Of a stretch of DNA of 64,000 nucleotides, positions 45,856-48,246 are shown piece after piece. Source of the stretch: Enterovibrio baiacu (GTDB lineage Bacteria; Pseudomonadota; Gammaproteobacteria; Enterobacterales; Vibrionaceae); contig NZ_SCHN01000014.1 in NCBI RefSeq assembly GCF_004120195.1, positions 62,001-126,000 on the forward strand. Direction: 5' to 3'. The notes under the pieces were generated by a model. That model ran no database searches. It was not told the DNA's origin and was given only the letters and a program-made list of their open reading frames with translations. The position numbers were made by a program, and so were the translations under genes. Each line of letters opens with the position of its first letter. Position 1 is the first letter of the stretch.

Positions 45856-47667
45856 ATGAAAGGTGCACAACGGTCGTTTAGTCGCGGGTTAGCGATAACG
45901 GCGCTTTCCCTGCCCATGCTGTTTTCAGCAACATCGCAGGCGAACGATGAGCTACTCAAGCTTCAAGATGATCCCAACCAATGGGTGATGTGGGGCGCGA
46001 ATTATTCAGGTACACGTTACAGCTCACTCGATCAAATCAACGCAAAGAATGCCAAAGACCTGCAAGTTGCTTGGACCTTCTCAACAGGGGTTCTCCGCGG
46101 ACATGAAGGCGGCCCTCTTGTGATTGGCAACACCATGTATATCCACACCCCGTTTCCGAACAAAGTGTTCGCGATCAACATGGATAAGCAAGCGCTTCGT
46201 TGGTCTTATGAGCCAAAACAAGATTCCTCGGTTATCGCCGTCATGTGTTGTGACACCGTAAACCGTGGCCTCGCCTATTCCGACGGAAAAATTTTCCTGC
46301 AACAAGCAGACACCACCTTAGTCGCGTTGGATGAAAACACAGGTGAAGTCGTGTGGAAAGTGGTCAATGGTGACCCGAAAGTCGGGGCAACCAACACCAA
46401 TGCGCCGCTGGTCGTGAAAGACAAAATCATCACAGGGATCAGTGGGGGCGAGTTCGGTGTTCGCGGCTACCTCACCGCATATAACGTCAAAGACGGCAGC
46501 GTTGCCTGGCGCGCCTACAGCACAGGGCCAGACGATGAAATGCTGGTCGACCCTGAAAAAACCACCGAGATGCTTAAGCCGATCGGCAAAGACGCCAGCC
46601 TAAAAACGTGGGAAGGCGACCAATGGAAAATTGGTGGCGGTACAACATGGGGTTGGTTTACCTATGACCCAGAGTTGAACCTGATTTACTACGGCACAGG
46701 TAATCCAAGCACATGGAACCCATCGCAACGTCCAGGCGATAACAAGTACTCCATGACCATCATGGCGCGTGATGCCGACACGGGCATGGCGAAATGGCTA
46801 TACCAAATGACGCCTCATGACGAATGGGATTATGACGGCGTCAACGAAATGATATTGGTCGATAAGACATTCAACGGCAAAGACAGAAAACTACTTGTGC
46901 ACTTTGACCGAAATGGCTTTGGTTACACCCTCGACAGAGTCACGGGTGAACTGCTTGTCGCTGAAAAATTTGACCCTGCTGTGAATTGGGCAACCCATGT
47001 GGACATGGAAACCGGACGTCCTCAAGTGGTCGCAAAATATTCAACCGACCAAAACGGTGAAGATGTCGATACAACGGGCGTTTGCCCAGCAGCATTGGGC
47101 TCAAAAGACCAACAACCTGCCACCTACAGTGAGCGCACTGGCTTGTTCTATGTGCCGACCAATCATGTCTGCATGAACTACGAACCGTTCGAAGTTTCCT
47201 ACACCGCAGGTCAACCCTATGTCGGTGCCACCCTTTCTATGTTCCCCGCCCCAGACAGCCACGGCGGTTTGGGAAACTTCATCGCATGGGACGCTGAAAA
47301 AGGTGAAATCGTATGGTCTATTCCTGAGCCATTTTCCGTGTGGAGTGGCGCATTGGCGACCGGTGGCGGCATCGTGTTTTACGGCACGCTGGAAGGCTAC
47401 TTGAAAGCAGTGGATGAGAAGACAGGGAAAGAGCTTTACCGCTTCAAAACCCCGTCAGGCATCATCGGTAACGTAAATACCTACATGCACAACGGTAAAC
47501 AATATATTGCCGTGTTGTCAGGTGTCGGTGGCTGGGCTGGTATCGGTATGGCGGCTGGGCTTGAAGGCGACACTGACGGGCTCGGTGCGGTGGGCGCGTA
47601 TCGCAAACTGTCTGATTACACCCAATTGGGCGGTGTGTTGACGGTCTTTGCCTTACCGGAAAGCTAA
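45856..47667 (+). CDS. xoxF: Lanthanide-type PQQ methanol/alcohol dehydrogenase XoxF
   Basis: Periplasmic quinoprotein that oxidises methanol or other primary alcohols. 603 residues with a signal peptide ending near S-Q-A/N. An eight-bladed propeller is indicated by repeated W-motifs. The adjacent Cys131-Cys132 ('[10 protein letters not shown]') form the vicinal disulfide over PQQ; Glu199, Asn283 and Asp325 are the metal/catalytic residues. '[12 protein letters not shown]' places Asp327 two positions after the catalytic Asp, the mark of lanthanide-dependent enzymes; calcium MxaF has Ala there and ExaA-type enzymes Ser or Thr. '[14 protein letters not shown]' and '[15 protein letters not shown]' are typical XoxF. 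No MxaI or cytochrome cL gene accompanies it. ATG 45856 has GGAGG; the longer reading from 45814 lacks one. A terminator follows. Confidence 0.93.
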
Positions 47668-47678
47668 TCAGCAACGAA

Positions 47679-47700
47679 GGGGAGTGAAGACTCCCCTTTT
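47679..47700 (+). terminator. Terminator after xoxF
   Basis: GGGGAGT-GAAG-ACTCCCC followed by TTTTCGCTTTT. It would make the downstream copper-protein operon partly independent of xoxF. Confidence 0.85.
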
Positions 47701-47715
47701 CGCTTTTCGTTACGT

Positions 47716-47750
47716 GATGCGAGATGCGAGATGCGAGATGCGAGATGCGA
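47716..47750. repeat. Five tandem copies of the heptamer GATGCGA
   Basis: Five exact head-to-tail copies between the xoxF terminator and the cupredoxin start, 46 bases before its ATG. Being outside coding sequence, changes in copy number would alter spacing in the upstream region without affecting a protein. Confidence 0.95.
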
Positions 47751-47796
47751 AAAGCATCAACAACCCGCGAGTAAGACATAACCAAAAGGATTCCAA

Positions 47797-48246
47797 ATGG
47801 CTAAACGACTTTTTTGGGTGATCTGTTTGTTTTGGGGAGCCACCTCCCTCAGCCACGCGACAGAACATGAAGTTCGCGCCGTGGGTGTGAAGTTCGATCC
47901 CATGTTCATCGTTGTTGAACCGGGCGACCGTGTTTCTTGGGTCAACATGCCCGCACACATGATTGAAACCATTGACGCCATGGTGCCTGAAGGCACAGAG
48001 AAAATCAGAACCGAACTGGGTGTTGATGTCAGCTTTGTGTTTAACGAAGACGGTATTTACGTCTACAAGTGCACGCCACATTGGGGCGCGAGAATGGGCG
48101 GTGTATTGCTTGTCGGTAATCCGAGTGACATCGAAGGCACGATCGACGCCTACCTTGCTGAAATTCAGAAAGATAAGTCTCTACTGCCTGCAAAAGGATT
48201 GCTGAAAAAATTCAAAAAGCATCTCCAAAAGCAGGGAGTCATATAA
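47797..48246 (+). CDS. Pseudoazurin-like type 1 copper protein
   Basis: 149 residues with a signal peptide ending S-H-A/T. The copper ligands can be placed by the pseudoazurin pattern: His in 'MPAHMIETIDAMVPEG', and Cys, His and Met in 'YKCTPHWGARMGGVLLVG' (C-x2-H-x4-M). A helical, lysine-rich C-terminus of about 45 residues follows, as in pseudoazurins. Pseudoazurins carry single electrons in the periplasm, so this is the likely acceptor for the preceding XoxF, in the place of the usual XoxG cytochrome. AAGGA precedes the ATG. Confidence 0.9.
   Translation: MAKRLFWVICLFWGATSLSHATEHEVRAVGVKFDPMFIVVEPGDRVSWVNMPAHMIETIDAMVPEGTEKIRTELGVDVSFVFNEDGIYVYKCTPHWGARMGGVLLVGNPSDIEGTIDAYLAEIQKDKSLLPAKGLLKKFKKHLQKQGVI

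Follow-up and report, generated by a model that had tools for sequence, protein, structure and literature searches.

The subject of this analysis is a xox gene cluster of Enterovibrio baiacu, carried on a stretch of 64,000 nucleotides (contig NZ_SCHN01000014.1, positions 62,001 to 126,000; hereafter the window) of a genome of 5.37 Mb, and in particular the two genes at its center, xoxF for a XoxF5-type methanol dehydrogenase (45856-47667) and the gene directly behind it for a type 1 copper protein, or cupredoxin (47797-48246). Seven genes of the same direction occupy positions 42940-49525, in the order CXXCW protein, SoxH-related hydrolase, SoxYZ-like carrier, xoxF, cupredoxin, 130-aa protein, and xoxJ. 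An initial annotation, made from the letters of the window, had paired the dehydrogenase with the copper protein in place of a cytochrome, noting that the cluster encodes no CxxCH protein. A motif search of the open reading frames (ORFs) agrees: the CxxCH motif is found in no protein of the xox cluster, and its sole occurrence among ORFs of at least 60 aa at 38-64 kb belongs to a 77-aa frame (55286-55519) that overlaps an opposite-strand kinase gene along its full length.

Results

The XoxF enzyme

The longest open frame of xoxF begins at TTG 45814; residues are numbered here from ATG 45856. The D-Y-D motif of the initial annotation is indeed encoded at 46828-46836 (GAT-TAT-GAC, Asp325 and Asp327), and Glu199, Asn283, and Cys131-Cys132 were assigned by motif. 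The protein scores 776.6 bits with TIGR03075 (cut-off 480), and its closest solved structures, 6oc5 (E 1.7e-296) and 6dam, both bear the name XoxF; a review table (PMC11845868) gives M. extorquens as the source of 6oc6, the sequence of which is identical to 6oc5, and M. buryatense as that of 6dam. The identity of XoxF to five compared relatives from the Vibrionaceae is 88-96%, the nearest being the enzyme of Enterovibrio norvegicus DSM 15893 (96%), and its orthologue in Grimontia marina CECT 8713 is 91% identical over 601 residues. The same review table, citing Huang et al. 2019, lists the G. marina XoxF5 as La-Nd dependent with a Km of 24 uM; it contains metals and kinetics and names no acceptor. 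A lanthanide-dependent activity of the E. baiacu enzyme is predicted from this orthology only. Because the G. marina orthologue is so listed, we count the enzyme as known, and it is the assignment of its acceptor that appears to be new. The long leader of xoxF has no match in Rfam, so its reading as an RNA element is unsupported.

The copper protein

The product of the downstream gene is a type 1 copper protein with four ligands, as first annotated, by both its ligand set and its cupredoxin fold. It matches PF00127 (42.4 bits, cut-off 21.2), and the copper ligands His54, Cys92, His95, and Met100 are invariant in 18/18 aligned relatives. The first ligand His is also present in all 136 rows of the cupredoxin tree described below, where the other three ligands (Cys, His, and Met) were selection criteria for the rows. 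The AlphaFold2 model has a mean pLDDT of 90.4 and two C-terminal helices, and pseudoazurins are the best solved matches of the protein in sequence as well as in predicted fold (fold E 3.6e-12). It is the only PF00127 protein of its own genome at E 0.01.

The label of pseudoazurin given to this protein can be kept in part. The fold, the four ligands, and the CTPH....M loop justify "pseudoazurin-like"; identity as a pseudoazurin is unsupported, since the protein scores 64.8 bits with the equivalog model TIGR02375, below its cut-off of 109.85, and, unlike the members of that family, it lies on a separate branch and is linked to xox genes. An ordinary pseudoazurin located here by chance is backed neither by the cupredoxin tree nor by the TIGR02375 score. 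The XoxF proteins and cupredoxins of the Vibrionaceae pairs are both acidic; the comparison of charges is therefore uninformative, as no simple charge attraction between them is expected. That the protein serves as a copper chaperone or maturation factor, and not as a redox partner, is hardly credible in view of its complete His-Cys-His-Met site, its pseudoazurin fold, and the position of its gene, which is that of a cytochrome gene in related clusters.

Conservation of the gene order

The pairing was followed in a sample of 296 genomes of the Vibrionaceae, in which XoxF matches at 1e-60 were found in 23. Fifteen of these, E. baiacu included, possess XoxF itself, and the remaining eight have only dehydrogenases approximately 40% identical to it. 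The order xoxF, cupredoxin, 130-aa gene, xoxJ is present in 15/15 XoxF-bearing genomes; both xoxF and the cupredoxin gene are broken in one of the genomes (G081, locus L039), and stops interrupt xoxF in two (G078 and G051). Named hosts in a scan of public data are Enterovibrio, Grimontia, and Photobacterium sp. JCM 19050. Chance neighborhood of the two genes is ruled out by this constant order together with its recurrence in other lineages.

Such recurrence was observed in a sample of 369 genomes of the class Gammaproteobacteria, searched with a XoxF threshold of 1e-180. Thirty genomes matched, and one of them, G414, has an MxaF-like enzyme only, leaving 29 with a D-x-D XoxF. A recurring arrangement of these loci is xoxF-X-xoxJ, in many cases with an additional gene of no family (d258) behind it. 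The slot X holds a TIGR03874-related cytochrome in L237, L238, L240, L242, L246, and L250 (the interval additionally contains soxH and soxYZ in L240 and L246) and a cupredoxin in L251, L255, L258, L259, L260, L262, L263, and L285. The cytochromes in this slot score 42 to 144 bits with TIGR03874 ("methanol metabolism-related"), under its cut-off of 161.75; "XoxG-type" is therefore a name of this analysis, given from gene place and kinship.

Within 4.5 kb downstream of 58 XoxF/MxaF-type rows, taken from these loci and the named ones, we found a cupredoxin in 25, a XoxG-type cytochrome in 7, neither in 26, and both in none. Some genomes are met twice in this tally, the rows with neither include five MxaF-like ones (-WDYAG-), four of which have a haem protein nearby, and L272, which is devoid of the motif, and one cupredoxin row, L289 (genome G609), has a poorly aligning dehydrogenase without the motif. 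In 24/25 rows with a cupredoxin, xoxJ follows. In addition, the cupredoxin is unlinked to XoxF in nine genomes of the class (L276-L284, L293), in eight of which it lies beside xoxJ elsewhere, the exception being G435.

A different picture emerged from 398 genomes sampled across the phylum (XoxF threshold 1e-150, 40 matched). Among the best 29 of the 39 matched genomes besides E. baiacu, all with D-x-D, a XoxG-type cytochrome is present in the flank of 28 and a cupredoxin in that of none, and, our own genome aside, no cupredoxin of this sample exceeds 118 bits, the best one scoring 108. The copper arrangement is therefore seen in Gammaproteobacteria only. Within this class it is wider than first thought: the initial annotation called such a relay unusual for a Vibrionaceae-type genome and proposed a survey of other genomes for xoxF beside a pseudoazurin-like gene, and in this survey the pairing recurs in both family and class samples, with members of the same cupredoxin branch linked to xoxF or to xoxJ in further lineages of the Gammaproteobacteria.

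Co-occurrence and phylogeny

The cupredoxin (at least 118 bits) is present in 23/369 genomes of the class, namely in 17/29 with a D-x-D XoxF versus 6/340 others (Fisher p 5e-17, or 5e-9 minus our own genome and the seven genomes that seeded the profile). Among the six others, G459 has a xoxF fragment, G609 the poorly alignable dehydrogenase beside the cupredoxin, and G365 and G530 a xoxJ gene adjoining it; G455 is of the Methylophaga type, and no link was seen in the examined DNA of G303. XoxG-type cytochromes, called by TIGR03874 at 1e-4 or by the alignment of slot cytochromes (A2) at 1e-10, occur in 0/15 Vibrionaceae genomes, 9/22 other cupredoxin genomes, and 11/12 cupredoxin-free XoxF genomes (12/13 with G414 counted). 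The mutual exclusion has p 5e-5, and 0.014 by genus with one mixed genus omitted, values to be read with the reservations that 6 of the 11 cytochrome-positive genomes seeded A2, that the genomes are related, and that XoxG is not one family, XoxG4 being outside the models used. A weak match to TIGR03874 only (28 bits, a 707-aa frame of G386) was set aside. When G414 is kept among the XoxF genomes, the four values become 1e-16, 8e-9, 2e-5, and 0.006, respectively.

The XoxF tree was built by a quick method from 50 rows, after removal of 8/58 as duplicates, near-duplicates, or fragments; the metal-site motif of these rows is -WDYDG- in 43/50 and -WDYAG- in 5/50, with no match in 2/50. Presence of the cupredoxin changes five times on this tree, at least four of the changes being forced by well-supported branches, and is fixed across the Vibrionaceae branch. 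A second clade of 20 rows (Shimodaira-Hasegawa-like approximate likelihood ratio test, SH-aLRT, 100) has the cupredoxin in the slot in 10 and elsewhere in the genome for the other 10. The cupredoxin tree has 136 rows and few columns, and the grouping of its rows is ours. One branch unites 75 rows against 61 others (SH-aLRT 93); it contains 35 xoxF/xoxJ loci, 4 loci of the Granulosicoccaceae, 33 of the Methylophaga type, and 3 without a link seen. The Vibrionaceae cupredoxins group with those of the Granulosicoccaceae (support 99).

Cytochromes and oxidases of the genome

The initial annotation proposed to look for xoxG in the rest of the genome, as a cytochrome of this kind elsewhere could be the true acceptor. 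The search was run with three models, TIGR03872, TIGR03874, and the slot-cytochrome alignment (XoxG4 is outside them), and found no XoxG-type cytochrome. The top match to TIGR03872 has 28.9 bits against a cut-off of 147.8 and is a 323-aa two-haem CcoP-like frame; there is no match to TIGR03874 at 1e-4 and none to the slot-cytochrome alignment at 1e-10. By our reading of sequence and context, the PF13442 cytochromes of the genome are oxidase and bc1 subunits, c4/c5-like proteins, a cytochrome c550 of the PedF type, a 144-aa protein beside a two-component system, a 273-aa protein, and a multi-haem oxidoreductase-type protein; this inventory is that of PF13442 and not of PF00034, a weak match at C17:55227 falls outside it, and of its members only PedF was compared with family models. 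Genes for a cbb3-like oxidase and for a cox-like oxidase bearing haem c are present, again by our reading. The bc1-like locus lies on another contig and has no cupredoxin gene.

Other features of the region

Upstream of xoxF are encoded a rhodanese-like CXXCW protein associated with pyrroloquinoline quinone (PQQ)-dependent catabolism (42940-43533, plus strand; TIGR03865, 160.7 bits, cut-off 128; PF00581), the quinoprotein relay system zinc metallohydrolase 2, related to SoxH (43530-44477, plus strand; TIGR04559, 339.6 bits, cut-off 280), and a quinoprotein dehydrogenase-associated SoxYZ-like carrier (44493-45323, plus strand; TIGR04557, 266.2 bits, cut-off 140). The four genes from xoxF onward are on the plus strand as well. 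The cupredoxin gene is followed by that of the 130-aa protein (48257-48649), which has conserved cysteines C45, C60, C62, and C120 and relatives in other xoxF clusters and no family match in Pfam or NCBIfam, and by xoxJ for a MoxJ-like periplasmic protein (48659-49525; TIGR03871, 249.1 bits, cut-off 212). The four-cysteine protein accompanies xoxF clusters, being encoded downstream of xoxF here and mostly upstream in other lineages. Near xoxJ of both XoxG-type and cupredoxin-type clusters, 21 loci carry the gene d258 for a protein of approximately 230-330 aa, one frame being longer (examples are L259:3264-4013, minus strand, and L262:9665-10555, plus strand). Two d258 proteins have no match in Pfam or NCBIfam, and a search of the window and 14 further Vibrionaceae stretches gave no relatives. 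At L191:8008-10255, in a metagenome-assembled genome of Pelagibacterales, a distant PQQ-type dehydrogenase gene (product 30% identical to XoxF) directly precedes a cupredoxin gene.

Genes for synthesis of the PQQ cofactor are present in the same genome as xoxF: pqqE (62050-63225, minus strand), then pqqD (63152-63424) and pqqC (from 63497, in part within the window), and pqqB past the window end. All of them score over the cut-offs (TIGR02109, 552.3 bits; TIGR03859, 81.4; TIGR02111, 369.7; TIGR02108, 394.7). Past pqqEDCB, beyond the window end, lie genes for an ExaC-type aldehyde dehydrogenase, an ExaA-like dehydrogenase, and the c550 PedF; a NosR-like membrane protein is encoded between pqqB and exaC, also outside the window (L226:3539-5761, minus strand; 620.8 bits, cut-off 1000). 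Between the xox and pqq clusters, at 55067-58943 (minus strand), a gene for a NahK/ErcS-type hybrid kinase adjoins that of a NosP nitric-oxide sensor, and this pair is a possible regulator of quinoprotein dehydrogenases.

A GATGCGA heptamer is repeated in tandem at 47716-47750, between xoxF and the cupredoxin gene. A similar encoded string, LASRISHLASRI, recurs in opposite-strand frames of the window and in L226 at 7667-7936; the heptamer may therefore be a dispersed repeat.

Discussion

The XoxF5 described here is predicted to be a lanthanide- and PQQ-dependent methanol dehydrogenase, and its acceptor is probably a dedicated cupredoxin encoded in the xoxG position and not a XoxG-type haem protein. 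The partnership of the two proteins, put forward in the initial annotation, is well supported at the level of comparative genomics by the conserved gene order, the occupation of the xoxG slot, and the finding of no XoxG-type cytochrome in the genome; the transfer of electrons, its direction, the receiving oxidase, and the metal are what we infer on this basis. The periplasmic XoxF would oxidize methanol to formaldehyde, and the electrons of PQQH2 would pass singly to the Cu(II) ion in the cupredoxin, the exposed edge of His95 being their presumed route. The reduced cupredoxin would then deliver them to a terminal oxidase of the cbb3-like or cox-like type.

In comparison with the known XoxF-XoxG-XoxJ system, E. 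baiacu likewise has a XoxF5 enzyme, xoxJ, genes for PQQ synthesis, and, immediately behind xoxF, a gene of the acceptor type, but the gene in the slot encodes a type 1 copper protein in place of the cytochrome. That known XoxF systems use XoxG, as stated in the initial annotation, is not settled for all of them: XoxG1-4 were proposed as acceptors (PMC5723320), and the acceptor of the XoxF5 from gammaproteobacterial methanotrophs is called not apparent in another study (PMC6277846). Transfer of electrons from a C1 dehydrogenase to a type 1 copper protein is known for methylamine dehydrogenase and amicyanin (PMC12723479), although both the enzyme and the cupredoxin family are different there (21 bits with the amicyanin model, cut-off 110.2). 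No description of a xoxF-cupredoxin pairing was found in the literature searched, which excluded most subscription papers; in the text available from PMC6697039, PMC6189053, and PMC12848317, xoxF and azurin-like terms are both present, not paired.

Several observations weigh against a dedicated copper acceptor. An intrinsic-terminator-like hairpin of 10 pairs (47676-47699, plus strand) separates xoxF from the cupredoxin gene, so the two need not form one simple transcript. Hairpins recur at this place in relatives: a GGGG...CCCC stem follows xoxF in 9/10 Vibrionaceae relatives viewed (that of L119 falls past the folded stretch of 70 bases), and the hairpin of L125 is a different one. Moreover, 9/22 of the cupredoxin genomes from outside the Vibrionaceae also hold a XoxG-type cytochrome; therefore both carriers can share one genome.

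The strongest rival acceptor is the PedF-type c550, encoded approximately 25 kb downstream of the xox cluster beside the ExaA-like dehydrogenase and scoring 189.4 bits with TIGR04494, over its cut-off. This cytochrome could serve both enzymes as their true common acceptor, leaving to the cupredoxin the role of an auxiliary or secondary carrier. In Pseudomonas, one c550 serves both a calcium and a lanthanide enzyme. We nevertheless consider such sharing unlikely, since the gene for this cytochrome is associated with the ExaA-like dehydrogenase and since such sharing would leave unexplained both the cupredoxin in the xoxG slot of several lineages and the linkage of cupredoxin to xoxJ. The ped/exa system of this genome has its own haem carrier gene, and its dehydrogenase is approximately 39% identical to XoxF. 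Of the two quinoprotein genes, one therefore has a neighbor encoding a haem carrier and the other a neighbor encoding a copper protein.

The remaining points against a dedicated acceptor come from loci of the Granulosicoccaceae and Methylophaga, and they bear on the alternative that the cupredoxin is a general carrier from bc1 or other dehydrogenases to oxidases, whose gene lies with the xox genes on account of a demand for the protein during their expression, and which does not dock to XoxF. The cupredoxin gene of Methylophaga aminisulfidivorans is 8-9 kb away from xoxJ-xoxF and directly precedes genes for Rieske, cytochrome b, and cytochrome c1-like proteins (L155:9932-13086), an arrangement compatible with a more general carrier role; it adjoins bc1 genes in G455 (L288) as well. 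Among the Methylophaga-type loci of the public scan, xoxJ is present in the examined DNA of 20/31. In two Granulosicoccaceae loci, L126 and L127, the gene immediately before that of the cupredoxin encodes a c-type cytochrome of approximately 248 aa, which is not of the XoxG type, and no xox gene is found within 10 kb of the cupredoxin in L129 (20 kb viewed). The loci of this family also show xox or pqq genes with the cupredoxin: L128 has the order xoxF, xoxJ, seven other genes, cupredoxin, and then pqqB, xoxJ lies at the opposite end of the cupredoxin's cluster in L126, and pqqB-E are behind the cupredoxin in L127. The oxidoreductase-like and c-type cytochrome genes before the cupredoxin (L126:7829-10441, L127:46-2241) are SoxCD-like by our reading only.

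Expression data from Methylophaga nitratireducenticrescens come with the reservation that its pseudoazurin and azurin genes are not equated with this cupredoxin: in favor of a general carrier, a pseudoazurin is among the highly expressed genes of anoxic cultures (PMC5918138), and against a dedicated acceptor, in a biofilm 2/4 xoxF genes were reported down 2- to 9-fold with the pseudoazurin and azurin genes unchanged (PMC6697039). Still, a general carrier seems quite unlikely in view of the xoxG position of the gene in Vibrionaceae and other lineages and of the bc1-like locus of E. baiacu, which is on another contig and without a cupredoxin.

Beyond the probable pair of E. baiacu, we lean towards the view that a distinct cupredoxin subfamily replaced XoxG in several gammaproteobacterial lineages, giving rise to a lanthanide-PQQ-copper relay that would supply the missing acceptor for a sizeable share of gammaproteobacterial XoxF5. 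In a 2026 Pseudomonas paper, Enterovibrio and Grimontia are listed among the holders of a related RuBisCO large subunit (PMC12875217), and that RuBisCO in combination with XoxF might allow autotrophic growth on methanol.

The conserved copper protein in the xoxG slot of other Gammaproteobacteria provides a concrete acceptor candidate where the acceptor of the XoxF5 from gammaproteobacterial methanotrophs has been called unclear (PMC6277846). The candidate is testable with two proteins, and the kinetics of the Grimontia marina XoxF5 have already been published, according to the review table (PMC11845868). If the proposed relay is true, the supply of lanthanides and that of copper would meet in a single electron path when these bacteria oxidize methanol, and the bacteria would be overlooked by surveys in which the function of xoxF is judged by the presence of xoxG.

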